The notes beneath the pieces are model-generated. The model had not been told where the DNA came from. It saw only the letters and a program-made list of their open reading frames with translations, and searched no databases. Shown piece after piece: positions 12,440 through 28,146 of a stretch of 49,168 nt of DNA (positions within the stretch are counted from its first letter, which is position 1; each line of letters begins with the position of its first letter). The position numbers and the translations under genes were made by a program. Source of the DNA: a virus; IMG/VR virus record IMGVR_UViG_3300031576_000074, positions 1 to 49,168 of that record. One strand, written 5' to 3'.

Positions 12440-12807
12440 TGCGGGCAGAATGGACCGTGCAGTGGTCAGCGCAGAGTGTGCGCGAGGCAGCCTTAAGGCA
12501 GATGGCATATCATGAAGGTCGCGTTGTTTTTTGGAAGAGCCATCGTGATGATGCTGAGGAGGACTTACGCACATCTGGTCTTGAATTAAGATCAATGCCA
12601 GTGACAGGCGGAGATCGCATTGATGCGGTAGTTGATCCTTTGAAGGCACGTCGTCTTGAAGAATGCCGTCAGAAAGTAGCAGGGCATGAGGAGCTTTGCA
12701 AGCAATATCGGCAATGGGCGGAGTTTTTAGAGAATAGCGGTGCTGTTTTTAACCTAAATTTCGGCGACTTTGAATTCTTTGCCATGAAGGCAGCTGGTGT
12801 TAGCTAA
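12439..12807 (+). CDS. Hypothetical protein, 122 aa
   Basis: GTG start with GAAAGGAGAGGATA upstream. The sequence is helical and charged, with VREAALRQMAYHEGRVVFWKSH at the N-terminus and an aromatic C-terminal segment (NLNFGDFEFFAM). It overlaps the next gene by 11 bp. It belongs to the DNA-modification operon by position, but nothing in it points to a specific reaction. Confidence 0.55.
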   Translation: MRAEWTVQWSAQSVREAALRQMAYHEGRVVFWKSHRDDAEEDLRTSGLELRSMPVTGGDRIDAVVDPLKARRLEECRQKVAGHEELCKQYRQWAEFLENSGAVFNLNFGDFEFFAMKAAGVS

Positions 12808-13699
12808 GTTGTTGGAAGTGCCCTATGCCCCCCCTAGCGTAGAAGGACTCTGGGATTTTTGTCGCGAGAGAGAAGCTATAAGACTTCGTAAGGAAGCAGG
12901 TCAGCCGCCTCCTTGGACAGAAAATATTATTCTCCGAAAATTTCATTTTTGTAATATTCATCGCGAGCATGATAGGGGCACTCGCTGGTATATGGGTACT
13001 GTGGTTCCGGCGGCTGAAAACTTTGATGATCTCCTTTGGCGGACGATTCTCTACCGAGCAGTAAATAATTCGGCTTGGTTTTTAAGGTCGGGTGTTGGTG
13101 TTTTTGGGATAAAGGACTGGTCGCTCTATAATACCGAGATTCGTCGTAATGTTGCTCAAGCTTCTAAGCCTTATAGCCCCGCATATATCACCCTTCAAGG
13201 GCCAGATGGTTTAGATCGTAAGACTCACTTGCTAGAGTTGCTAGAAGCTATGGCGCGGAGATTTGGCGCAGGTTTTGCTAGGGAGATTAGGGGTGCGGAA
13301 AGTTTGAAACAGGTTTGGGAAAACTTACAGACCCTTCCCTACGTTGGTCCCTTTATAGCTCTACAAGTCTATCGTGATCTATTACTGGCCGATGCTTTGC
13401 CTGCATTTAGCGACGATGATTTTGTTTACCTTGGTCCTGGTTGTCGTAAAGGTGTAGAGATGCTGCTAGGCATAAAGCCTTACAAGCAGCAGTATGTTGC
13501 ATTGCAGAAGCTACAGCAGCAAGTGCCGGAGGATTTATGGCCTATTAGCTTAGGTGATCTTGAGCAAACTCTTTGCGAAGCCCGCAAGTATTGGCGTTTA
13601 CAGCAAGGAGGAGGACGTCATAGGTACTATATGGCCACCGATCACAGACTTTCTGGAGGGGCACAAGCTGCCGATAGAGCTGGCGGCGAAGTTAGTTGA
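12797..13699 (+). CDS. Putative DNA thymine-hypermodification transferase (aGPT-PPlase-like)
   Basis: The 300-aa protein has WDFCREREAIRLRKEAGQPP then PWTENIILRKFHFCNIHRE-DRGTRW. This ERxxIxxRK / PWT-ILxxFxFCNxxRExDRxTxW pattern recalls the alpha-glutamyl/putrescinyl-thymine pyrophosphorylase family of hypermodified-thymine phages. In that pathway such enzymes displace pyrophosphate from phosphorylated 5-hydroxymethyluracil in DNA and attach an amine or amino acid. A helical second half includes VWENLQTLPYVGPFIALQVYRDL, similar to a helix-hairpin-helix. It lies with a TS-like enzyme, a kinase and a second member of the group. The match is from memory. Confidence 0.6.
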   Translation: MLAKLLEVPYAPPSVEGLWDFCREREAIRLRKEAGQPPPWTENIILRKFHFCNIHREHDRGTRWYMGTVVPAAENFDDLLWRTILYRAVNNSAWFLRSGVGVFGIKDWSLYNTEIRRNVAQASKPYSPAYITLQGPDGLDRKTHLLELLEAMARRFGAGFAREIRGAESLKQVWENLQTLPYVGPFIALQVYRDLLLADALPAFSDDDFVYLGPGCRKGVEMLLGIKPYKQQYVALQKLQQQVPEDLWPISLGDLEQTLCEARKYWRLQQGGGRHRYYMATDHRLSGGAQAADRAGGEVS

Positions 13700-13958
13700 A
13701 CGCTACGAGACCCATTGTGTAGAGTATGCAACTCAGGAGTTGCATGAAGATGGCATTGATGCTTGGCCTGTCAATGCTTGTATGTTTAAGGATAACTTGC
13801 AGGATGTTGAGGAAGAACTGATAGACGCGATATTTAATGCGCTTGTTTATCTATACCGCAATAAGAACGTTAGCGATAGCTTGTTGAAGAGCTTATTACA
13901 AGCTTGGGCGAATTTGAGTACAGAGAAGAATCTACAGGGCCTGCGGGAACCTAGATGA
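13554..13958 (+). CDS. Hypothetical protein, start uncertain (possibly ATA at 13620)
   Basis: The frame from GTG 13554 overlaps the previous gene by 146 bp and has no ribosome binding site there. A perfect AGGAGGAGG sits at 13606-13614, followed 5 nt later by ATA 13620 in frame, giving IGTIWPPITDFLEGHKLP. No ATG, GTG or TTG lies between. The body is helical and acidic: LAAKLVERYETHCVEYATQEL and DVEEELIDAIFNALVYLYR. The EEELIDAIFNA segment faintly recalls MazG-like nucleotide pyrophosphohydrolases, which would fit beside a nucleotide-modifying enzyme. That link is weak. Confidence 0.6.
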   Translation: MILSKLFAKPASIGVYSKEEDVIGTIWPPITDFLEGHKLPIELAAKLVERYETHCVEYATQELHEDGIDAWPVNACMFKDNLQDVEEELIDAIFNALVYLYRNKNVSDSLLKSLLQAWANLSTEKNLQGLREPR

Positions 13959-14896
13959 CACACTTCTATCGCGCCAGTAATTCCGCCATTATCTATCGCC
14001 AGCAGTTAAAGGATCTTGTAGAGAATCCCGACCATATCATAACGGTACGAGGTAGACCTACACGGGAGCTCCTCAATGTTGTCACGGAGATTACAAGTCC
14101 CCGTGCCCGTTGCCAGATTGTACCTGGGCGTAAGCTCAGTCCCTGGCTCATGTTGAGCGAAAGTTTGTGGTTATTGGCGGGCCGCGATGATGTTGCTGCT
14201 CTGGAGCCCTACAACAAGCGCATTAGCGAGTTTAGCGATAACGGTAGAACTCTCTATGGAGCCTATGGCAAGCGTATAGCAGATCAAATTCCCAACCTGT
14301 TGCAGCGGCTTATAGTGGAGCCCAATGATCGTAGGGCTGTACTGCAAATATGGCGCGAAGAAGATCTAACGGCGATTACACTCGATCCACCGTGCAATGA
14401 TTTGGCTATGTTCAAACTGCGCGATGAAAACTTGCACATGACTGTAATCTGTCGCAGTAACGATTTGCATTGGGGCCTTCATGCTGTCAATTTGCCCCAG
14501 TTTAGCATTCTTTTGGAATATCTTGCGGCCCGTCTTGGAGTAGGTGTGGGCACTCAAACTCACCTTAGTCAGAGCTTGCATATCTACACCGATGTTGAAG
14601 GACAGAAGATAACGGATAGAATGCTAGCAGCTATGGATGAACCACTGCAGGAATTGCGTGTAAATGGTCTGTTCCCTAGTCCCTTGCCCTCGCATATTAC
14701 ACATAAAGAATTTGCTGAAGTTTGGTGCAGTGCTGTATTAGATGGTTATGGAAAACAACCTCGTCCATTTCCCTTCTTAGAGTTTGTTGATGATTTCCTT
14801 CAGGCTTATAGAGAGCCAGATAATAAGGATCCATTACGTCATGCTGCTGCGTTCAGCAGTTGGGTAAGGATGGCGGAGGAGTTCTGGAAGAAATGA
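13955..14896 (+). CDS. Thymidylate-synthase-fold enzyme, probable dUMP hydroxymethylase
   Basis: The 313-aa protein has the TS core: catalytic Cys147 in DPPCNDLAMF, the phosphate-binding R167-S168-x-D170 in CRSNDLHWG, N179 in HAVN, and H209/Y211 in LHIY. RRAVLQIW supplies the arginine pair. TS-type phage hydroxymethylases make 5-hydroxymethyl-dUMP or -dCMP. Retention of Asn at the base-reading position (N179) points to a uracil substrate, because dCMP enzymes carry Asp. The His usually after the catalytic Cys is Asn here. With the kinase and transferase-like genes around it, hydroxymethyl-dUMP synthesis is likelier than ordinary dTMP synthesis. An ATGA overlap joins it to the upstream gene. 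Confidence 0.82.
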   Translation: MTHFYRASNSAIIYRQQLKDLVENPDHIITVRGRPTRELLNVVTEITSPRARCQIVPGRKLSPWLMLSESLWLLAGRDDVAALEPYNKRISEFSDNGRTLYGAYGKRIADQIPNLLQRLIVEPNDRRAVLQIWREEDLTAITLDPPCNDLAMFKLRDENLHMTVICRSNDLHWGLHAVNLPQFSILLEYLAARLGVGVGTQTHLSQSLHIYTDVEGQKITDRMLAAMDEPLQELRVNGLFPSPLPSHITHKEFAEVWCSAVLDGYGKQPRPFPFLEFVDDFLQAYREPDNKDPLRHAAAFSSWVRMAEEFWKK

Positions 14897-15774
14897 ACCT
14901 AACCAACGGTAAGGTTGATACTGCGGCTTTGAATGATTTGGTTATTTTTACTAAACTTGAGCAGGAGGCCAATGATATTGAGCCATGGGCTGAGGTCATT
15001 AAAGTTCTCGCTTTAGATGATGAAGATGCCTTATGGGTTTTGAAACTATACAATGCCTACGATGATATAAGTAGTGCATGGAGAGTATTTACGGAATACC
15101 CTTCGCCGAAAGACTGGCGTAATGGGATTAATCGTGAGAAAGTCTCCAAGTACCCTATATCGCGAGAGCGCAGAAATCTCTTTGGTGGCAGAGTCATTAA
15201 ACATTTAGACTCCTATGTTGAATTCCTTGGTAACAAGAATCAGTTTGATTGGGTTTTTGAAGATTGGTCAGATAACCCCGTGAAACTCTTCCGGAGCACC
15301 TACGAGCATTTATTAAAAGTGTGGGGTGTTGGTAGACAAACTGCTTTCGAGTGGGTAGAGTTTATAACGAAAGTGATGGATGCTCCAATAGTACCCCAAG
15401 ACGCTTTGCTTTGGGAATCTAGTGGTCCTCGTCAATCCTTGGAGAGACTTTATGGGAACGACAATTCGACTCCTGAATGGTTAGGAGAAATTGCCATTAA
15501 ATGTAAAGAATATCTTACTCAATACGGTGTTGCACTTTCTTGGTGGGATTTTGAGACCGTTATTTGCGATTTCAACGTCATGCGCAAAGGCCGTTACTAC
15601 CCCGGTAAGCATATAGCGATGTTGAGGGAAGAGATTATGAGCTTGAAAGAGCCTCATTGTTCTCGTTTGCGCGGAGCCTTAGAGTCTGTCATTCCTTGTA
15701 AATGGATAGAAACTCCTGCCGATAAATCTCTTGGTAGACTTTATGTCGATAACGGGGTTATTTACGGGTCATGA
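14893..15774 (+). CDS. Second putative DNA hypermodification transferase (aGPT-PPlase-like)
   Basis: The 293-aa protein starts at ATG 14893, overlapping the TS stop (ATGA) with GGAGGAGTTC upstream. Features include a helical N-terminal domain, a helix-hairpin-helix-like LLKVWGVGRQTAFEWVEF (about 150-168), the LLWESSGPRQSLERLYG segment and the C-terminal FETVICDFNVMRKGRYYPGK motif. The last two resemble conserved motifs (WESSGPR-SLxRLxG; E-xLCxF-x-GRYxxGxxI) of phage enzymes that attach amino acids or polyamines to phosphorylated 5-hydroxymethyluracil in DNA. A paired set of two such proteins in one operon is known in hypermodified phages. Substrate unknown. Confidence 0.6.
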   Translation: MNLTNGKVDTAALNDLVIFTKLEQEANDIEPWAEVIKVLALDDEDALWVLKLYNAYDDISSAWRVFTEYPSPKDWRNGINREKVSKYPISRERRNLFGGRVIKHLDSYVEFLGNKNQFDWVFEDWSDNPVKLFRSTYEHLLKVWGVGRQTAFEWVEFITKVMDAPIVPQDALLWESSGPRQSLERLYGNDNSTPEWLGEIAIKCKEYLTQYGVALSWWDFETVICDFNVMRKGRYYPGKHIAMLREEIMSLKEPHCSRLRGALESVIPCKWIETPADKSLGRLYVDNGVIYGS

Positions 15775-18537: not shown

Positions 18538-18967
18538 TAACTCCTTTCTCCTTCATGCGCGTTCTGTAAAACTTATCGACTATTTGCTCGGGGCTCAGCT
18601 CTCTCAAATCTTTTACGATAGGCCCCATTACACGTTGGAGTGCACTGAGCCCAGCCTTATTCAAGACATATGAGGACTTAAAGCCAGCATCCAGCATCTG
18701 TTTGGCTAGAATTACCCGCTTTAGTAGCTCCGCTCGACTTGGCCTATTCCCTTTAGATCTTGGTATTACCTGTAAGATATGCAAGCCAAGTTCCCGCTGG
18801 ACCTCAGCAATACCGTTCTTGTGAACGGGATCAGTAAGGGCAAGGCTGCGTTTGCCCTCTTTGTTGAGAACTATATGACCTTTGGTGCCTTCACGAGCTT
18901 CCCAACCTGCTGCCTCCATGAGTTTGATGATAATGTCACGTCTGTAAGGGCTTGATCTTTGTGTCAT
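18509..18967 (-). CDS. Protein with HicA-like (dsRBD-fold) N-terminal domain
   Basis: The first 65 residues have the HicA layout: RRDIIIKLMEAAGWEAREG, then TKGHIVLNKEGKRSLALTDPVHKNGIAEVQRELGL, with the GH of the catalytic beta strand and a later basic helix (HicA toxins have GSHxxF ... PxH..ELxxGTLRxIL). The second half is a separate helical domain of about 80 aa (LLKRVILAKQMLDAGFKSSYVLNKAG). HicA proteins are mRNA interferases, but no HicB partner is adjacent, so a nucleic-acid-binding role is as likely. It is coupled to the RuvB-like gene by an ATGA overlap. Confidence 0.5.
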   Translation of the reverse strand: MTQRSSPYRRDIIIKLMEAAGWEAREGTKGHIVLNKEGKRSLALTDPVHKNGIAEVQRELGLHILQVIPRSKGNRPSRAELLKRVILAKQMLDAGFKSSYVLNKAGLSALQRVMGPIVKDLRELSPEQIVDKFYRTRMKEKGVIVRPTIPPN

Positions 18968-19935
18968 CCTTCTTCTCCTTTCAAGCTAGCGGCCACTCGG
19001 CCTCCGGTCCATGTTGCTGCTCGTCCTCCTTTCGTAATATCCATTAGCCCACGCCGCAATAGGTAGGGCTCTACTCCTTCGGCTATGGTGCTAGTATCTA
19101 CGCCTACCCGTCGTGCTAATTGCTCCAGGCCCATTGGCTGTTCGCTATTGCGTAGTATCTCTAACACTTGACGGTCAAGGTTTGTTAACCCCGCGGAGTC
19201 AATACCTAACGCTTGCCATACCTCCTTTAGATTCACATGGCCGTTACTGTTGAAGTCTGCTACGCGTCGCAGCAGAGTATTTGCTACACGGGGTATCCCC
19301 CGCGCACGGCGGGCGATACTCTTAACCTGGCTGGGGCTTAGTTTAAGTTCCAAAAGCGTGGCGCTACGGCGAATAATGCGGCTGATATCTTTCTCGCTGT
19401 AGTAACCCAAGTAAATCGTGTAGCCAAAGCGATCCCGTAGTGGTGCAGGCAGCTTTCCGCTATCAGTTGTGCCACCAATAAGTCGCCAGTTTTCCTTTAG
19501 CTTGTGCACTGCACCATTAGCGCGATAGAGTATGCCATCTTCCAGTGCGCTATATAGGATCTCTAAGGCTTTGCGGCTGGCGGCATGAATCTCATCAATG
19601 AAGAGCATGTTGCCGCCGAGCAATAATGCAGTCTCTGCATCCTTTGCTGTTCTTACTTGCCCGCCAATAACTGTATGCAAAGCTGCGCCGCTGGCAGCTA
19701 TGCGGGCTAGGGTTGTTTTGCCCGTACCCGGAGGGCCTACGAGCAATAGATGGTCGCTCAAACGGCCCCGTTGGGTCATTGCAGTTAGCACTGCCCTAGC
19801 TTCTTCCTGGCCTACAAAGTCTTCTAAATGAGTTGGTCTTAACGAGAGCTTCGGTGGCTGCGACTCAGCTACATGCGCCCTCACCAGCCAGATGAGGAGA
19901 ATGGCTAGCGCAATTACAACAAGTTCAAAGGTCAT
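18964..19935 (-). CDS. RuvB-like Holliday-junction AAA+ ATPase with N-terminal membrane segment
   Basis: The 323-aa protein follows RuvB along its length: LRPTHLEDFVGQEEAR, Walker A GPPGTGKT (67-74), Walker B FIDEIHAA (D114, E115), sensor 1 GGTTDSGKLPAPLRDRFG with the arginine finger, sensor 2 ARGIPRVANTLLRRV, and a C-terminal winged helix with LTNLDRQVLEIL and LLRRGLMDITKGGRAAT. RuvB drives branch migration of Holliday junctions. The oddity is residues 3-20 (FELVVIALAILLIWLV), a strong hydrophobic helix replacing the usual start, which suggests membrane anchoring. No RuvA or RuvC is in the window. It joins neighbours by 4-bp overlaps on both sides. Confidence 0.85.
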   Translation of the reverse strand: MTFELVVIALAILLIWLVRAHVAESQPPKLSLRPTHLEDFVGQEEARAVLTAMTQRGRLSDHLLLVGPPGTGKTTLARIAASGAALHTVIGGQVRTAKDAETALLLGGNMLFIDEIHAASRKALEILYSALEDGILYRANGAVHKLKENWRLIGGTTDSGKLPAPLRDRFGYTIYLGYYSEKDISRIIRRSATLLELKLSPSQVKSIARRARGIPRVANTLLRRVADFNSNGHVNLKEVWQALGIDSAGLTNLDRQVLEILRNSEQPMGLEQLARRVGVDTSTIAEGVEPYLLRRGLMDITKGGRAATWTGGRVAASLKGEEG

Positions 19936-20444: not shown

Positions 20445-20761
20445 AGGCTTCTCCTTTCCGGTACTTGGCTGCGATAGGCGGGCACTCGCCAGCTAAGTTC
20501 TGTCTCTACTAGCTCAACCGCCTTGTAGCTTTTTCCTCCTACATTCCACAGGCGTATTTCCTCTACGGGCTCTTCTCTTTTCCAGTCGTAGATAGTGACG
20601 ACTGTTTCGTCGCTAAAGATTAGCCACCATTCTGCTTGTGTTTTTCCGTCTTGGCTGGGGCCTTCCGGTGGCCCAAAGAACTCGCATAAGCGAGCGTAGG
20701 TCTCTGTTATTTGTCCTTGATAGCTGGTGCCTTCGATGTCCTTACTGGTTGCTCTTCTCAC
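20441..20761 (-). CDS. Conserved small phage protein, 106 aa
   Basis: The pattern GTSYQGQITETYARLCEFFGPP, then DGKTQAEWWLIFSDETVVTIYDWK and LWNVGGKSYKAVELVE matches a recurring phage family with unknown role. It is a single mixed alpha/beta domain without metal-binding residues. GTG start overlapping the previous stop codon. Confidence 0.6.
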   Translation of the reverse strand: MRRATSKDIEGTSYQGQITETYARLCEFFGPPEGPSQDGKTQAEWWLIFSDETVVTIYDWKREEPVEEIRLWNVGGKSYKAVELVETELSWRVPAYRSQVPERRSL

Positions 20762-21063
20762 TGGCTTTTCCTTCCGCTAAGATCAATATCATCCGTAACT
20801 GAGAGCTTCTCTCCCTCTGTTAATACAGGCCGTTTAGAGAATTCTTCCTTTCCGTTGTGCCAGCCCAAAGTTACTGCGATGTCCCTTTTACATTCTGGGC
20901 AGTAACTTTCAATGCTAAAGGCTGACCATTGTCCTTCCACAAGCAGTTCAATATTCTCTTGAACCATAAAAGTTCTAAATTGTCCGCAGCTTTGGCATTC
21001 AAGAGTAAGTGCTAAATGTTCTTGATTATTTAGTTCACGGCGGTAGGTGGATTGTATGGTCAC
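20758..21063 (-). CDS. Zinc-ribbon protein, 101 aa
   Basis: Two knuckles, CQSCG and CPECK, about 32 residues apart, frame a beta-rich core (LLVEGQWSAFSIES), giving a typical four-cysteine zinc ribbon. The GTG start overlaps the stop of another zinc-ribbon gene immediately upstream (GTGA). Function is not evident. Confidence 0.6.
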   Translation of the reverse strand: MTIQSTYRRELNNQEHLALTLECQSCGQFRTFMVQENIELLVEGQWSAFSIESYCPECKRDIAVTLGWHNGKEEFSKRPVLTEGEKLSVTDDIDLSGRKSQ

Positions 21064-21308
21064 GGCGAGAATTTCGCTCCTTCGCTCTCGCCAGGAACAG
21101 CTTGGAAAATGAAGCCGTCTATCTCCTTAGGCTCATAGATGAGCTTTGAGCTTGTATCTCCACACTCAGGGCAATAAGTCAGTCCGGTAGCTTCGCCCAG
21201 CATAAGATCGCGAGTTGTTCCTTTATCTGGCCACTCCTTGTAATCTGAGCAGACTAGAAAGTGCAGCCCGCAGTTCATGCATTTAATGGGGTGTTGGTAG
21301 TAGGGCAT
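21060..21308 (-). CDS. Zinc-ribbon protein, 82 aa
   Basis: CMNCG at 10-14 and CPECG at about 46-50 make a four-cysteine zinc ribbon; the tail is acidic. A good ribosome binding site (GAAGGAGAAGAAT) precedes the ATG. It is one of many short zinc proteins in this leftward operon. Confidence 0.6.
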   Translation of the reverse strand: MPYYQHPIKCMNCGLHFLVCSDYKEWPDKGTTRDLMLGEATGLTYCPECGDTSSKLIYEPKEIDGFIFQAVPGESEGAKFSP

Positions 21309-21915: not shown

Positions 21916-22215
21916 TTAAACGACGCGGTCTTGAACAGCTTGGATAGTTGCCCATTTTCCTCGTGGGAACCAACTATCCGGAGCTATCTTCATTAATGCT
22001 TCTAATAGAGCCTTGAACATAGCCGTATCGTCTACTTCGGAAGGATTCGTATCTCCGCTCATAGCCCAATCCATCTCGTGTTCCGCATCAAAGAGGGGAT
22101 TAGCTAGTGCTACAAATGCTTGTGTCGTTAGAGGCCACAATTCTTGCGCTTGGCCTACAGTTAGCAGACCTTGCTGTAATCGAAAACCTTCATAATCCCA
22201 ATGTCCTCCACTCAT
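21916..22215 (-). CDS. Conserved phage protein starting MSGGHWDY, 99 aa
   Basis: ATG 22215 is chosen because it overlaps the upstream stop (ATGA), follows AAAGGAGAAGGTATGAC and gives MSGGHWDYEGFRLQQGL, an N-terminus often seen in small phage proteins. A later segment (EHEMDWAMSGDTN, DTAMFKALLEALM) is acidic and helical. Function unknown. Confidence 0.6.
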   Translation of the reverse strand: MSGGHWDYEGFRLQQGLLTVGQAQELWPLTTQAFVALANPLFDAEHEMDWAMSGDTNPSEVDDTAMFKALLEALMKIAPDSWFPRGKWATIQAVQDRVV

Positions 22216-22670
22216 GTCATACCTTCTCCTTTCAACACAAACCTTAGATGCTTGCACAAGTAGGGCTCTTGCGGTATGCGCACAGCCCAACGGAAATTTT
22301 CACAGGGGCAATGCGCGGGGCTACGTAAATCCCCTGTCCAAACGTTGTAGGGAACCCCTTTAAATTCCTTGCAGCTTTCGCCGCAATGAATACAGCCCTC
22401 GCTAAGATGATGCTCTGGAGCTCCGCCACAGCCGCATACGCTTTCACTAGGAACAGTAACGTAATGCGCAGGACTTTCTTGTTTTAGATAGTAGCCATTA
22501 CTGCGAGGTCGCATGCGGTGCAAAGAGATGCGAGTACGACGACCATTGTCATCAATGCAATATACGTAACGTTCGGCTACGCGCATCACGGTAAGTTCCC
22601 GCATATCTTTACTATCGCCCCATATCTGGCCAGGGCGGACTGTAATAGGAGGGACACCGTTATTGATCAT
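22212..22670 (-). CDS. SH3/Tudor-like domain plus SWIM-type zinc finger protein
   Basis: The 152-aa protein opens with VRPGQIWGDSK...VERYVYCIDDNGRRTRISLHRMRP, a small beta-barrel common in phage proteins. It then has a CGCGG..H..CIHCGESC cluster and ends with CPCENF and LCKH, matching the CxCx(n)CxH pattern of SWIM zinc fingers. SWIM fingers bind nucleic acid or proteins. The role here is not known. Confidence 0.55.
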   Translation of the reverse strand: MINNGVPPITVRPGQIWGDSKDMRELTVMRVAERYVYCIDDNGRRTRISLHRMRPRSNGYYLKQESPAHYVTVPSESVCGCGGAPEHHLSEGCIHCGESCKEFKGVPYNVWTGDLRSPAHCPCENFRWAVRIPQEPYLCKHLRFVLKGEGMT

Positions 22671-23045: not shown

Positions 23046-23393
23046 CTACAGGCCCCCGTTCACACGGCCTACGACCGTGACGAACGCTCCTTCTTGCAGC
23101 TGCGGATTACTAGTAGCAGCTACGGGCTTGTTGTTTACCCTTACGTCGCCAGGGCTGCGCACTCCAAAGAGCCTGAGGGCTTCTTGAAGTGTAGTCTTGC
23201 CGCGTTCCAGGGCGATGTCCTTAGCTACTCCGGGCAGTGTTGCTACCTTGACAGTGATTACCCCGCCGGTCTTAGCCTTGGACTTAGCGGGAGTTGCTTT
23301 TGCCCGGTCAGCCGCCTTACGAGCTGCGGCTCTAACAATCGCATTAGGAGCCTTAAGCTTCGTGGCAGGGCGAGCCTTTGTTGTAGTGTCCAT
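23046..23393 (-). CDS. Ubiquitin-like (beta-grasp, MoaD/ThiS-type) protein ending Gly-Gly-Leu
   Basis: The 115-aa protein has a Lys/Ala-rich disordered N-terminus (1-44) and one beta-grasp domain (about 45-115): GVITVKVATLPG, the helix TTLQEALRLFGV, VRVNNKPV and the final strand FVTVVGRVNGGL. The C-terminal Gly113-Gly114 with one extra Leu matches Ubl modifiers that are trimmed to expose GG before E1 activation. Genes for an E1-like enzyme, a JAMM peptidase and an E2-like protein lie just upstream in the same operon, which strongly favours a protein modifier over a sulfur carrier. ATG follows AGAGGAGGTGATAAAGA. Confidence 0.75.
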   Translation of the reverse strand: MDTTTKARPATKLKAPNAIVRAAARKAADRAKATPAKSKAKTGGVITVKVATLPGVAKDIALERGKTTLQEALRLFGVRSPGDVRVNNKPVAATSNPQLQEGAFVTVVGRVNGGL

Positions 23394-23697
23394 TCTTTAT
23401 CACCTCCTCTCCTTTCAAAACATCATCACCCAGAAAATTGACAAGTGAATAATGATTGTAGAAGCTGGATATAGGTTTCCAAAACTTCCACACCATTTCT
23501 TGATAGGTGACTTTATGTAATATGTCATAGCGCCACCTCCAATCGCGGCCCATATTGATATCCTCTTCCGCAGCTTTGGAGATGCGGTCAAGCAACCCAA
23601 TGCGATATTTATAGACAGCGTTGTTGCGCAAAAACATATAGATGCTGCTCATGAGGATTATTATCATTACTGTGATAAAGACGATGTAGTAGACCAT
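23353..23697 (-). CDS. Small membrane protein with one N-terminal transmembrane helix
   Basis: Residues 2-22 (VYYIVFITVMIIILMSSIYMF) are a single strong membrane helix, followed by about 90 soluble residues with several Trp and Tyr. It lies between the E1-like and Ubl genes and overlaps the Ubl start by 41 bp. It could be a membrane partner or target of the Ubl system. No family is recognised. Confidence 0.6.
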   Translation of the reverse strand: MVYYIVFITVMIIILMSSIYMFLRNNAVYKYRIGLLDRISKAAEEDINMGRDWRWRYDILHKVTYQEMVWKFWKPISSFYNHYSLVNFLGDDVLKGEEVIKNGHYNKGSPCHEA

Positions 23698-23714
23698 TCT
23701 ATTCCTTCCTTTCT

Positions 23715-24380
23715 TTAGCGAGTCTGTAGCGTAAAGCTGGTAAGGTCGAGCACAACCTCAAAGATTGCCTTTTCACCAGCGACAAATCTCTTTACCGCAT
23801 TGGCGATAAGGCCACCAGCTATAAGCCCTGTGTAAATGATGCTCTGCGCAGTACAGGGAAGCTGTAAAGCTTCCTCATCACTGTAGAGCATCTGCTCGTA
23901 ATCCTCCCCCGCCAAGGGGTCGTGTGGGTTAAGGCTATAGAGACGTAGCAGCTGCCCGCCCATACGAGCATCAATAAAGAAATCGACATCCAAACTGCGC
24001 AACGCCGCCGCCCATATCTCCTTACGACTAGCCATAGAATCAACTGCCGCTATGACAATACCTTCTAGTCTAGGGGCACTAGCTGCTCTATCCTGAAAAC
24101 GCAGGTTTTGAAGAGATAAGTTTACCCCTGCTGCCATATCGTGGATTAGTTTTCCCAGTGAATGGACTTTAAACTTACCGAGTTGTGAAACTGGATGGAG
24201 TTGGTTTGGGAGGTTGTGGACTTCTACGCGGTCATGGTCCCAGATTGTGATCTCCCCCACACCCATTTTGGCGAGGGCAATACCTGCGGGGCTACCGATA
24301 CCGCCAGCGCCAATAAGGTGGACTGAGGTTTCTCGTAGCTTTTCCATAGGTACAATGTCTAACTGCCTTGTGTAGTCCAT
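23715..24380 (-). CDS. E1-like/ThiF-family adenylating enzyme
   Basis: The 221-aa protein is a minimal ThiF/MoeB fold: nucleotide loop HLIGAGGIGSP (GxGGxG 24-29), acidic DHDRVEVHNLPNQ (D48, D50, N56, Q60; the usual Arg of NLxRQ is Asn), K71, D114 in AAVDSMASR, and a probable catalytic cysteine C176 in LPCTAQS, matching the active-site Cys region before the last helix of MoeB/ThiF. The CxxC zinc pairs of MoeB are absent, as in PRTRC-type ThiF proteins. It would adenylate the Ubl C-terminus and form a thioester. It ends 3 bp after the JAMM gene. Confidence 0.85.
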   Translation of the reverse strand: MDYTRQLDIVPMEKLRETSVHLIGAGGIGSPAGIALAKMGVGEITIWDHDRVEVHNLPNQLHPVSQLGKFKVHSLGKLIHDMAAGVNLSLQNLRFQDRAASAPRLEGIVIAAVDSMASRKEIWAAALRSLDVDFFIDARMGGQLLRLYSLNPHDPLAGEDYEQMLYSDEEALQLPCTAQSIIYTGLIAGGLIANAVKRFVAGEKAIFEVVLDLTSFTLQTR

Positions 24381-24382
24381 CT

Positions 24383-24991
24383 TTAGATAGCCTCCTCCAG
24401 AGTAACGGCACCTTGCTCTAGCAGCATCTTAATAATATCGTCGTTAATACTGTCGCCATTCTTACTATGCTGCTGGAAGATAGTAGGAGGACTTGACCAC
24501 ACTTTGTTTTCAATCTCTTGGGCTATACGACGGTCAAATTTTTCATCTATTATGTCAAACTTCTGCAGCTTTAGGTCTTCCACTGTGGCCCTAATGGGCT
24601 CATAAAAGTCTAGGCGTAGGTTATGATCAAGCCGATGATTGCTCACTAGGCTCAGCATCCAGAGACTACCGAGCTCCGCAAAGCGTTCAATTGTAGCTTC
24701 ATCAGTGGAGCTAAAGAACGACCCGCCGCTCCCGTGGCTATGCCACCACAAGCCGATATCCGCTGGATCTTTCCCTTCTTGCAAAAGCCCATATAGTAGA
24801 TCTTGTAAGGCTTCTGTATCCAGCTCTGTGTGCGCCCTTCCCGCTTCTTGTGGAAGAATAAAGATGTCTGTAATAACCAGACAGTCCTCTCTACGCTCCA
24901 CTATGCCAAAGCCGCTTATTTCAGCCTCTGCTAGTCGCAGGTAGGCGCTTAGCCGCTGGTCTGCCTTTTGCTCTATGTACACCACTGTCAC
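24383..24991 (-). CDS. JAB/JAMM-family isopeptidase (deubiquitinase-like)
   Basis: GTG 24991 is chosen because AAAGGAGAAGAACA precedes it; a longer frame to 25072 has no ribosome binding site. In this 202-aa numbering the full JAMM zinc motif is present: E24 in EISGFG, H84 and H86 in WWHSHG, S94 and D97 in FFSSTDE (HxH-x7-S-x2-D). JAMM enzymes cut after the Gly-Gly of Ubl proteins, either to mature them or to remove them from targets. It would trim the final Leu of the neighbouring Ubl and/or reverse conjugation. The 5' end overlaps the E2-like gene by 71 bp. Confidence 0.85.
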   Translation of the reverse strand: MTVVYIEQKADQRLSAYLRLAEAEISGFGIVERREDCLVITDIFILPQEAGRAHTELDTEALQDLLYGLLQEGKDPADIGLWWHSHGSGGSFFSSTDEATIERFAELGSLWMLSLVSNHRLDHNLRLDFYEPIRATVEDLKLQKFDIIDEKFDRRIAQEIENKVWSSPPTIFQQHSKNGDSINDDIIKMLLEQGAVTLEEAI

Positions 24992-25844
24992 TGTTCTTCT
25001 CCTTTCTGCTAGCTTTCTCGTTTCTCTTGGAGAACTCTTTTGTGAGCCGTGAGTCCTTTCCATCGTGCTCAATAAATTCGATGATGGTGCCTACTAGCCC
25101 TACAATATCTCGTGTAGCTTGCAGCTTAACCATAAGGCCAGTAATGTTGCCCCAGCAGATATTGCGGGCCATACCGTCGCCTAAGATATGATTTTGATGA
25201 CATATTGAGCCTTGGTATTTAATGGGCGTATCGTTGAGTATCCGCATCACCCTACCAGTCTGCATATTTACGGTGATGGTGAAGCACCCTAGCACTACTT
25301 TATCTACCGCTAATGTATTTGTGCGGATAACTAAGTTCGTATCTTGTACTGTTGCGAAGTCCACACCTGTTAAGTTCTGCAACGCAGCTAACTCTTGGGC
25401 GGCTACGTCTGCGCTATTTTTACGCAAGGCTTTTTCGTCCTTTATTGCATAGATACGTTCGTAGTGACCCAGTAGACGTTCGAGTGTGGCCTTAGCTGCT
25501 TCTTTCTCCGCTACAAGCTGCGCTCCTAACGCTCTTGTTCGCTTAGTCGCTGCGCCATTACGCAGCGCCATATAAGCAGCGGCTAGCTCCTTTGGAGGTT
25601 GTGGCTTTGGCTTAACGGGAGGGACTTTCCTAGCTTTTGTGAGCAGGACATAGTTCTTTTCCTTTTTCCAAACCGCCCCCATTAAGCCTAAATGCTTGAG
25701 CACCGCAGCTACACTTACAGCAGCGTCCTCGCCAGGAACAAAGGCCAAGCATATAACTCTGTTGTGTGTGTACAGAACCAGATGCACCGGTGCATTTGGA
25801 GGTACTATCGGAACAAACTTTGTTGGAATGTAATGCCATTTCAA
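24921..25844 (-). CDS. E2-like (UBC-fold) protein of the Ubl system
   Basis: The 307-aa protein has an N-terminal region of about 70 aa, a charged helical linker (about 85-155) and a C-terminal domain with strands LGCFTITVNMQTGRVMRIL, then SICHQNHILGDGMARNICWGN. H216-x-N218 followed by C230 resembles the E2 signature HPN...ICLD, with C230 as candidate catalytic cysteine, and the later helices VGLVGTIIEF fit the UBC fold. PRTRC protein B proteins have a comparable arrangement. TTG start with AAGGAG eight bases upstream. A basic tail overlaps the JAMM gene. The E2 call is my interpretation of motif plus context. Confidence 0.6.
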   Translation of the reverse strand: MKWHYIPTKFVPIVPPNAPVHLVLYTHNRVICLAFVPGEDAAVSVAAVLKHLGLMGAVWKKEKNYVLLTKARKVPPVKPKPQPPKELAAAYMALRNGAATKRTRALGAQLVAEKEAAKATLERLLGHYERIYAIKDEKALRKNSADVAAQELAALQNLTGVDFATVQDTNLVIRTNTLAVDKVVLGCFTITVNMQTGRVMRILNDTPIKYQGSICHQNHILGDGMARNICWGNITGLMVKLQATRDIVGLVGTIIEFIEHDGKDSRLTKEFSKRNEKASRKEKNSDSGVHRAKGRPAAKRLPATSRG

Positions 25845-25928: not shown

Positions 25929-26051
25929 TTATCTTTTCCTTTCTTTTGTGCGGCTTACACCGCAGTCCTTGCAGCGCCAGAGCTTAACGTTCTGTTGCTC
26001 ATGCTTGCGGGGGCCAGTGCAACGGCGGCACAGCATTACTAGTGTTGCCAT
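25929..26051 (-). CDS. 40-aa zinc-ribbon protein
   Basis: ATG 26051 gives MATLVMLCRRCTGPRKHE...WRCKDCGVSRTKERKR: two CxxC pairs and a basic tail, a minimal zinc ribbon. It overlaps the VWA gene by 13 bp and precedes the E2-like gene, so it is transcribed with the Ubl module. Treble-clef or ribbon zinc proteins can act as E3-like adaptors, but there is no evidence for that here. Confidence 0.55.
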   Translation of the reverse strand: MATLVMLCRRCTGPRKHEQQNVKLWRCKDCGVSRTKERKR

Positions 26052-27394
26052 AAGCCCAAACCTCTCATAAAGTCGTTTATGTCGTTGTATCGTGTTATCT
26101 GATTGTCTTCTACAAAGACCCATAAAGCTTCCCGTGCGTACCCAGGAGCAGAGTCGTCAACTACTCCAGTAACAGCACCATCGCTAATCCAATAGCGTGG
26201 AGCCTTTTGGCGAGCCAGCCAGCGTAAAGCGGGTCCGTCTACTACGTTGCTACCATCAGCGCCTATTGGTTCAAGCTCGTAGGCCATTGTTCCGCCATTG
26301 GCTATAATCGCCAAGGCTCCTGCCTTGGCGCGATCTGTTCCTCCATAGGTAGCTACGATAGCGTTAGGAGCCAGCCGTGCAATTTCCTCCAAATCCTCTG
26401 GGTTGATATGCATCGATCCGCTTATGTCTATCAGCAAGCTTCCCAGTAAAGCCCCACTGCCGCGCTTAGTGGGGTTAGTAGCGAAAATTGCCCTATCTAA
26501 TAGCCAACGTTCTGGTCTTGCTAGCCTTACCCCCATAGGCTCGGCGCGACGCTTAGCTTTCTTACGAGCATGCTTAGGAGTTGTTCGACTTGGATGTTGG
26601 ATAGTCATCTCCCCCCAACGCCAATTAGGATTTGTGATACTATCCATTAGCTGCGCTGCGGCGGCTTTACTCTTAATTGGGTCTGAACTTCTAAGTTGAA
26701 ATTGAGCTTCTTTCACTTTTTCTTTGGCGGTTTGTTCTACCGCCTTAGCAAATAGCTTCTCTAAGCTGGGGGGCAGATCTTTTTCCTCTTCCTCGTCTTC
26801 GTCTTCTTCCTCGAAATCTCCCGCATCAGGATTTCCTTCAGAATTTTCCTTTCCTTCTCCTTCTGCCTCGTCTTCAGAATCAGTATTATTTTCTTCCTTC
26901 AGCTCTTGTAGTAGGTGAGCAGCGGCTATGGAGCTATGGATAGTTTCGGGAGCATCTAAGATAATATTCCGGGCACGCTGGAAAATTCCCCGTTGCTTAG
27001 GAGTCAAGCTTTCCAGTAACTTGTTGCGTTTTTCCAGGCAGGCTGTGTTATCTAATCCCAATGCCAAAGCATACAGTGCAGCTTCGTAAGGGTTCTGTAC
27101 GGTCGGCATCTCTAAAAATTCTGCTCCTACCGTATCTATGCTGTGCCGTTGCCAGGCTAGGATTGCTATGCGACAATCCTCTGCTGCTAGGATTGCTGTA
27201 CCTTGCCCTAATGGAACATTTTGCGGGCTGTACTTTACATGTGCCATCTCGTGGTCTCTTATAACCCTACTCAGCGGGCTTATATCGGTAGGTATGTGCA
27301 TGTTTCGACTGCGAATATCTGTAGCACCCTTTCCGGCTGAGATATTCCACGTTGCGGGCAATACTGCTCCGGGCAAGGGGTAGATATTATTCAT
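26039..27394 (-). CDS. CobT-like protein with HExxH motif, acidic linker and VWA domain
   Basis: The 451-aa protein has three parts. The N-terminal domain carries RDHEMAHVKYSP (H48, E49, H52) and AAEDCRIAI (E72), the HExxH...E layout of zinc peptidases and of CobT/VWA proteins. A Glu/Asp-rich linker spans about 165-206. The C-terminal von Willebrand A domain has the MIDAS motif LLIDISGSM (323-327). CobT-type VWA proteins work with a MoxR/CobS AAA+ ring, and the AAA+ gene directly upstream overlaps by 4 bp. Proteolytic or chelatase-like remodelling of a phage or host target is inferred. Confidence 0.78.
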   Translation of the reverse strand: MNNIYPLPGAVLPATWNISAGKGATDIRSRNMHIPTDISPLSRVIRDHEMAHVKYSPQNVPLGQGTAILAAEDCRIAILAWQRHSIDTVGAEFLEMPTVQNPYEAALYALALGLDNTACLEKRNKLLESLTPKQRGIFQRARNIILDAPETIHSSIAAAHLLQELKEENNTDSEDEAEGEGKENSEGNPDAGDFEEEDEDEEEEKDLPPSLEKLFAKAVEQTAKEKVKEAQFQLRSSDPIKSKAAAAQLMDSITNPNWRWGEMTIQHPSRTTPKHARKKAKRRAEPMGVRLARPERWLLDRAIFATNPTKRGSGALLGSLLIDISGSMHINPEDLEEIARLAPNAIVATYGGTDRAKAGALAIIANGGTMAYELEPIGADGSNVVDGPALRWLARQKAPRYWISDGAVTGVVDDSAPGYAREALWVFVEDNQITRYNDINDFMRGLGLWQH

Positions 27395-28146
27395 TCTTCT
27401 CTAGACCTCTTACAGCTATCGCAGTCACAATCTTCAACTTCATCACGAACTCCATATTCCATGGCGCTTAGTACGTCGTGCCCACGGCGACCCCAAACGG
27501 CAGCGGCAGCTGTTTCCTTATGGAGGGTGGAGTTAAGAGCTAGAAAAGCCTTGTATTCCCGTAAGCTAGCCTCTGGCTTTCCGGTAATTTCGGCGGCTTC
27601 GTACACACGATTCAAAAACCCTGCCTGGTGGGGCTCCAGCTCCTGCAGGGCAGCGGGATGTGGGCTGGTAATGTGCAGCCGGATAGCGAAGCGATCCTTA
27701 AGTGCATCGGGCAACGTGTTGGGCTCATCGTTCATAGTGGCAATTACACGAAAGCCCAAGGTAGGCTGCAATGTTTCGCCATTTGGCAAGGTAAGACGAG
27801 CTACCGCAGCATCGTCGCAGATGGCATACAGAGCCGTAAGCACACTGCCGCTAGCCAAGGCAATTTCGTTGATCAGTAGGCCCTTACCCTCGCGCCAGGC
27901 ACGCATAGCAGGGCCGTCGTGCCAGCTAAAACCGCCATCTTTGTTGGGAACGAACATGCCAATAACTTCGGCCACGCTCGTATCATCCGTAAGCGTGATA
28001 GCGTAGGGCGATGCTCTATTGGTATTAGTGCGTAACAAACTTCGGTATCCCGCAGTTGTCTTACCGGTGCCTGGTGGCCCGTACAGCAATACGGGGCCAC
28101 CAGAGATATCGAGGATTGTTTCAATCTCCTTCCAATTGGTTGCCAT
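27391..28146 (-). CDS. MoxR/CobS-like AAA+ ATPase
   Basis: The 251-aa protein has Walker A YGPPGTGKTT, a MoxR-type insert ITLTDDTSVAEVIGMFVP, Walker B LLINEIALA (Asn in place of the first Asp), sensor 1 FRVIATMND and arginine finger DALKDRFAIRL. It ends with a DCDCDSCKRSR cysteine patch. The protein forms an obvious pair with the VWA/HExxH gene (ATGA overlap). MoxR ATPases act as chaperones or metal-chelatase motors with VWA partners. CobS-like genes are known in large phages. Confidence 0.85.
   Translation of the reverse strand: MATNWKEIETILDISGGPVLLYGPPGTGKTTAGYRSLLRTNTNRASPYAITLTDDTSVAEVIGMFVPNKDGGFSWHDGPAMRAWREGKGLLINEIALASGSVLTALYAICDDAAVARLTLPNGETLQPTLGFRVIATMNDEPNTLPDALKDRFAIRLHITSPHPAALQELEPHQAGFLNRVYEAAEITGKPEASLREYKAFLALNSTLHKETAAAAVWGRRGHDVLSAMEYGVRDEVEDCDCDSCKRSREE

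Follow-up and report, generated by a model that had tools for sequence, protein, structure and literature searches.

Can a phage carry by itself the enzymes needed to attach a ubiquitin-like modifier to proteins and to take it off again? The question is raised by a group of genes in the virus record IMGVR_UViG_3300031576_000074, which was analysed over its whole length of 49,168 bases (hereafter, the window). Judging from the terminase, DNA polymerase, helicases (a replicative helicase among them) and toprim primase encoded in the same record, the source is a tailed phage, in keeping with the phage origin given in a preliminary description of this DNA; the record lacks a terminal repeat and is possibly incomplete. 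Five tightly packed genes on the minus strand, running from position 25844 to 23046, code for an E2-like protein, a JAMM/JAB peptidase, a ThiF-type E1 activating enzyme, a small membrane protein and a ubiquitin-like protein (Ubl), with a plausible ribosome-binding site upstream of each. The four open reading frames (ORFs) that the preliminary description had assigned to one operon with overlapping genes, that is all but the membrane protein, were confirmed in position, strand and arrangement. We consider it likely that they form a phage-encoded, self-contained operon for ubiquitin-like protein conjugation. The window operon is one of many such phage operons and not a lone case.

The E1 matched PF00899 at 6.3e-24, and its profile matches in the PDB were ThiF, NAE (NEDD8-E1) and UBA5. 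Both of the features ascribed to it earlier, the GAGGIG motif and the candidate Cys176, were found again, with Cys176 being the only cysteine of the protein and invariant in the E1 alignments. For the JAB peptidase, the ribosome-binding site points to the GTG codon at 24991 as the most likely start, rather than the start of the longest ORF at 25072. Read from this codon, the gene overlaps that of the E2-like protein by 71 nt and encodes a complete zinc site (E24, H84-S-H86, S94 and D97), which bears out the full E/HxH/S/D motif reported earlier, including the numbering of H84. In two alignments none of the five catalytic residues varies. The Prok-JAB match of the window protein was 1.5e-4, just below the family cut-off, and in the PDB the JAB family profile matched Rpn11 (2.2e-5) and the archaeal PfJAMM1 (7e-4).

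No Pfam or NCBIfam family model matches the Ubl or the E2-like protein, and both were found with leave-one-out profiles of their relatives. The Ubl scored 38 bits with a profile of five relatives versus a maximum of 9.1 in 1000 shuffles, and residues 93-285 of the E2-like protein scored 45 bits with a profile of eight relatives versus a maximum of 8.3 in 1000 shuffles. None of the other frames among the window's 390 open frames exceeded 4 bits with either profile. The Ubl ends in GRVNGGL, and the earlier reading of it as a beta-grasp protein with a Gly-Gly-Leu end held up well: a wider family profile aligns with PF1061, SAMP2 and ThiS up to and including the last Gly, with MoaD and TtuB also matched; the AlphaFold2 (AF2) model has the order strand-strand-helix-strand-strand-strand, at a mean predicted local distance difference test score (pLDDT) of 68 (~70-84 in the domain); and Foldseek on this model returned ubiquitin, SUMO, NEDD8 and TtuB with probability near 1, but with E-values of 0.002 or worse. 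The tail after the last strand, whose burial had been named in advance as an argument against a modifier, is predicted to be disordered and not buried. Gly114 is present in at least 90% of the Ubl relatives, and the ends GG-Arg, SG-Ser, SG-Lys and SG-Ile seen among them agree with the earlier proposal that one residue is to be removed from GG-Leu. In the E2-like protein, which carries the motif CHQNHILGDGMARNIC(230)WGN, C230-x-G232 was aligned in the leave-one-out match and C-x-G is invariant among relatives; its gene lies directly upstream of the JAB gene and overlaps it, as in phage relatives. The positions of these genes, and of other features taken up below, are collected in Table 1.

Table 1. 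Features of the window referred to in the text, in order of position within the operon and then outwards from it.
Feature	Positions	Strand	Length	Observations
E2-like (UBC-type) conjugating protein, candidate	24921-25844	minus	307 aa	conserved domain ~residues 93-285; Cys230, within HxNH..NICWGN, as candidate active residue
JAMM/JAB peptidase	24383-24991	minus	202 aa	start codon and zinc site as given in the text
ThiF-type E1 activating enzyme	23715-24380	minus	221 aa	GAGGIG, D114, sole cysteine C176
Small protein with N-terminal membrane segment	23353-23697	minus		phrog_25285 at 2.2e-7, function unknown; role unproven
Ubl, beta-grasp protein	23046-23393	minus	115 aa	basic extension at the N-terminus; predicted mature C-terminus Gly114 (GG-Leu)
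VWA protein	26039-27394	minus		HEMAH (HExxH) and DISGS MIDAS motifs; directly upstream of the Ubl operon
MoxR-type AAA ATPase	27391-28146	minus		AAA_5 at 1e-20; co-directional upstream neighbour
Small ORF between the VWA and E2 genes	25929-26123	minus		CxxC...CxxC, by eye
Cys-rich small protein	22212-22670	minus		SWIM-like CPC...CKH pattern, by eye
Cys-rich small proteins around the operon	including 20758-21308	minus		two CxxC zinc ribbons, by eye
RuvB, full	18964-19935	minus		RuvB_N, lid and C-terminal domains; PHROGs label is clamp loader
DNA-modification genes	12797-15774	plus		5-hydroxymethyldeoxyuridine (5-hmdU) DNA kinase (PF18723, 9e-45) and others named in the text

We sought relatives of the operon in other phages. 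Single-protein scans of viral contigs with the window JAB, VWA and E2-like proteins, and tblastn searches of phages with the Ubl, JAB, E2-like and VWA proteins, gave no matches, the window proteins having diverged too far for this. A degenerate DNA pattern built on the JAB motif (HSH-x5-FFS-x-TD) found at least 120 viral stretches, which are a sample and not a census. Among the matches listed, ThiF lay near JAB on the same strand in at least 76 non-redundant loci; the motif H[SP]H...CxG was present in 54 of the 69 ORFs directly upstream of JAB versus 0 of 476 other ORFs of the same loci; and the E2 and JAB frames, measured stop to stop, overlapped by a median of 83 nt. Many loci also have a Ubl-like ORF upstream of E2 (at least 50 by a loose pattern, some noise included), which ends in K-x-K-S-G plus one residue or continues into an extension of 60-170 aa. 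These cassettes are thus like the window operon in that their E2 and JAB genes overlap and E1 comes next, and in their conserved catalytic residues, and unlike it in the place of the Ubl gene upstream of E2, in the frequent KSG end with its extension, in an E2 motif of HSH or HPH type, and in E1s that are only ~27% identical. The carriers include the crAss-like phages cr111_1 and cr126_1, Flavobacterium phages of the FpV4 type (Fipvunavirus), Dulem virus 41 and many IMG/VR phages, and a search with the E2-like protein of cr111_1 recovers 74 phage records, crAss001 and DAC15 among them. In phages, annotations of the cassette parts read "thiamine biosynthesis protein", "metalloprotease domain" or "hypothetical", and their PHROGs matches have no assigned function. 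Their neighbours are Sak4 and a primase-helicase in one locus (L043), UvsX in another (L257), and a primase and UDG in crAss-like phages.

Two phages of the window's own branch stand closer. In L256 the order is Ubl-E2-JAB with E1 further on, and in L257 the Ubl (ending in EGGR), E2, JAB and E1 genes are contiguous; the L257 Ubl aligns with the ThiS model right up to its last position (E 0.0016), a direct parallel for the GG-Leu end in the window. For the crAss-type Ubls no beta-grasp fold was found by sequence, and their putative assignment is based on where they lie, on the KSG motif and on size. In L003, L004, L005, L006 and many other viral loci, the predicted Ubl domain ends in KSG or similar and is followed by the extension of 60-170 aa, so that these crAss-like Ubls look like fusion precursors that would need cleavage after the glycine. 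One viral locus (L115, 533-2642, minus strand) has two successive overlapping E2-like ORFs (CTGN and CMGS) upstream of a single JAB, possibly a duplicated E2 pair.

Outside phages, the nearest kin of the window operon, together with some of the phages above, appear to be operons of Saccharibacteria and other Patescibacteria. A genome scan with the JAB DNA pattern found JAB-E1-Ubl in the window order in two Saccharibacteria (L141 and L187), with an E2-like gene upstream of JAB, and an E1 profile matched 9 of 380 genomes of the Saccharibacteria/Patescibacteria phylum, 6 of them above 100 bits and several with E2 and JAB adjoining. Some of the contexts look chromosomal, with groEL/groES (L259) or valyl-tRNA synthetase (L244) nearby, by names read from the sequence. 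The operons (L141/L244-245, L187/L246 and L259-L261) share with the window the four parts, the order E2-JAB-E1-Ubl, a Ubl C-terminus in the style of [KR]V-x-[GN]-G and the E2 C-x-G motif; they are unlike it in being cellular, in E2s that often have other N-terminal domains, and in the lack of a membrane protein between E1 and Ubl. E1 identity to the window is 34-37% in L141 and L187 and 26-28% in other phage E1s. In the E1 tree, phage and Patescibacteria E1s cluster together (support 83-89), apart from the PRTRC and the Chloroflexota/cyanobacterial E1s (support 98); the tree fixes no exact position for the window E1. Significant sequence similarity argues for homology of the window E2 to the E2s of Patescibacteria, L256 and L257. 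In Saccharibacteria the E2-like domain is C-terminal to membrane segments and a coiled coil (L244, 910-2235; L246, 3968-5338, minus strand), which suggests that these E2s are membrane-anchored. In the Patescibacteria cassette near groEL/groES, the Ubl-like protein is 203 aa long and has at its C-terminus a CHNCG tail that resembles a zinc ribbon (L259, 4384-4995, minus strand). ThiF-like genes also lie beside the JAB pattern in Promethearchaeota (L154, L173, L208, L210 and L229), and these branch as a separate E1 group in the tree.

Operons with all four parts are already known from bacteria (PMC1779556, row 6d), and both these and the plasmid PRTRC system resemble the window in having Ubl, JAB, E1 and E2 in one operon. 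The likeness to a PRTRC-type cassette drawn in the preliminary description did not survive comparison. The window E1 reached 37.4 bits with the PRTRC_ThiF model (TIGR03736) versus a cut-off of 144.75, a positive control (L171) scored 344 bits, and the window E1 lies away from PRTRC E1s in the tree; the window E2 and Ubl were unmatched by the PRTRC, Prok-E2_D and Prok-E2_B models, PF14460 had no window match at E <=10, no PRTRC D, E or F parts were seen, and tblastn against plasmids with the window E1 gave no match. The phage case in the same survey (PMC1779556), the lambda tail proteins I (ubiquitin-like) and K (JAB), is likewise a phage-encoded ubiquitin-like domain adjoining a JAB, but it belongs to a tail module and has no E1 or E2, whereas the window operon is on the early/replication strand. 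Type II CBASS (cyclic-oligonucleotide-based anti-phage signalling system), with Cap2 and Cap3, and other defence systems with E1-E2 fusions share the E1 chemistry, an E2-type Cys and a JAB isopeptidase. We rejected membership in CBASS, since E1 and E2 are separate genes in the window with no Cap2 fusion, a dedicated Ubl gene is present, and the Cap3 model matched JAB only at E 0.13; scans of the operon proteins and their neighbours found neither a CD-NTase nor an effector. With NCBIfam and PADLOC the E1 matches were generic and the JAB matches weak, and there was nothing further from a model set in which none is dedicated to the Bil or Bub families. Finally, the archaeal SAMP2-JAMM1 and bacterial ThiS/ThiF systems are alike in that the Ubl profile matches SAMP2 and ThiS, the JAB profile JAMM1 (5lda) and the E1 ThiF, and unlike in having no E2. 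A complete phage Ubl cassette was undescribed in the literature searched, the crAss papers included, although reviews beyond that search might describe one.

We infer every catalytic step of the proposed mechanism from what is established about the chemistry of these families. The JAB peptidase would trim Leu115 from the Ubl and so expose Gly114, which the E1 would adenylate with ATP before binding the Ubl to Cys176 through a thioester. Next, the E2 would receive the Ubl on Cys230 and pass it to an amino group, probably of a lysine, in target proteins, with no obvious E3, and JAB would later remove it from those targets. Trimming is supported because one-residue Ubl tails recur and because the crAss-like Ubls are extended. 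The targets would be phage or host proteins, modified during the early or replication phase. In the window the Ubl operon, RuvB and the replication genes all lie on one strand, with the structural genes on the opposite strand, and because of this and of the Sak4, UvsX and primase genes beside the cassettes of relatives, the operon context suggests a part in genome replication or in host takeover.

Several further genes surround the operon. The VWA protein and the MoxR-type AAA ATPase are unproven neighbours that could possibly act as an unfoldase or protease partner for tagged proteins; a motif search did not find this pair beside the operon in phage relatives. The small membrane protein, suggested earlier as a partner, was not seen between E1 and Ubl in the relatives examined, and that suggestion gained nothing from the comparison. 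The Cys-rich small proteins around the operon are possible E3-like or accessory zinc proteins. A full RuvB is unusual in a phage. On the other strand, the 5-hmdU DNA kinase is accompanied by a thymidylate-synthase homologue and by an amino acid:DNA transferase or glutamyl- or putrescinyl-thymine pyrophosphorylase-like protein, a gene set from which the phage DNA probably contains hypermodified thymine.

Some of our findings weigh against conjugation. The E2 is the weakest part of the four-part assignment, fold prediction having given no usable model: AF2 of its domain reached a pLDDT of only 43, so that of the earlier claim of an E2-like protein with H-x-N...Cys230 the family and the conservation of the cysteine stood while the UBC fold was not confirmed. 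In a PDB profile search, HPHxxxxGxxC of the E2 profile lines up with HPNIDEKGQVC of UbcH7, but non-significantly (E 0.14-0.44), and the HPH-type profile matched no E2 in the PDB. Compared as a single sequence with profiles of the HSH/HPH phage E2s (hhalign), the window E2 gave no significant match, and its suggested homology to them rests on position and motif. Some Patescibacteria-type Ubls stop at Gly or in GN, which means that trimming is not universal, and no relative was close enough for a selection test. Could the E1 and a ThiS-like protein instead form a sulfur carrier, with a C-terminal thiocarboxylate serving a sulfur compound or the thiolation of RNA or DNA, and with JAB cleaving the carrier as in the CysO/Mec+ or thioquinolobactin pathways? 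The ThiS, MoaD and TtuB matches of the Ubl profile, the fit of the L257 Ubl to the ThiS model and the ThiF-like E1 would all suit such a role. Nevertheless, it leaves unexplained the E2-like protein with an invariant Cys that accompanies E1 and JAB throughout, and the families identified around the operon included neither a rhodanese nor a cysteine desulfurase nor a sulfur-compound synthase, and no gene for a partner sulfurtransferase or for sulfur-compound biosynthesis was identified among the window proteins scanned, which do not include every small ORF; we regard a sulfur carrier as quite improbable.

Conjugation may also be real and serve mainly against host defence, by tagging or un-tagging immunity components such as CBASS, Bil or Bub proteins, and not in replication. 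Related bacterial Ubl systems do act in anti-phage defence (PMC10097602), and the E1 superfamily is common to the CBASS and E1-E2 defence models. We nonetheless judge this role unlikely, as the operon occurs in very diverse phages beside replication and recombination genes and not in an anti-defence cluster, and Patescibacteria have it in their chromosomes. A link to DNA hypermodification, in which the Ubl pathway would for instance deliver an activated group, is suggested by the DNA kinase, thymidylate-synthase homologue and amino acid:DNA transferase of the window. However, ~7 kb separates these genes from the operon and they lie on the opposite strand, hypermodification as known requires no Ubl, and no such gene is annotated beside the cassette in the crAss-like and Flavobacterium stretches viewed, which makes such a link highly improbable.

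Our combined findings favour the reading of the window operon as a protein-conjugation pathway. A broader reading, which we hold to be evenly balanced between true and false, is that a broad set of tailed phages, including the abundant crAss-like gut phages, runs its own replication-linked Ubl conjugation pathway, shared with Patescibacteria and unrecognised so far because its E2 and Ubl have diverged beyond the reach of current family models. The best-studied bacterial Ubl systems of this type are anti-phage defences. If the broader reading is true, a pathway carried by phages would reverse this picture, with viruses using reversible protein tagging for their own replication or for remodelling of the host. 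The presence of related operons in cultured phages (the Bacteroides phages crAss001 and DAC15 and the Flavobacterium phage FpV4) makes it directly testable, and the Patescibacteria operon would give the prehistory of ubiquitin signalling a further branch.

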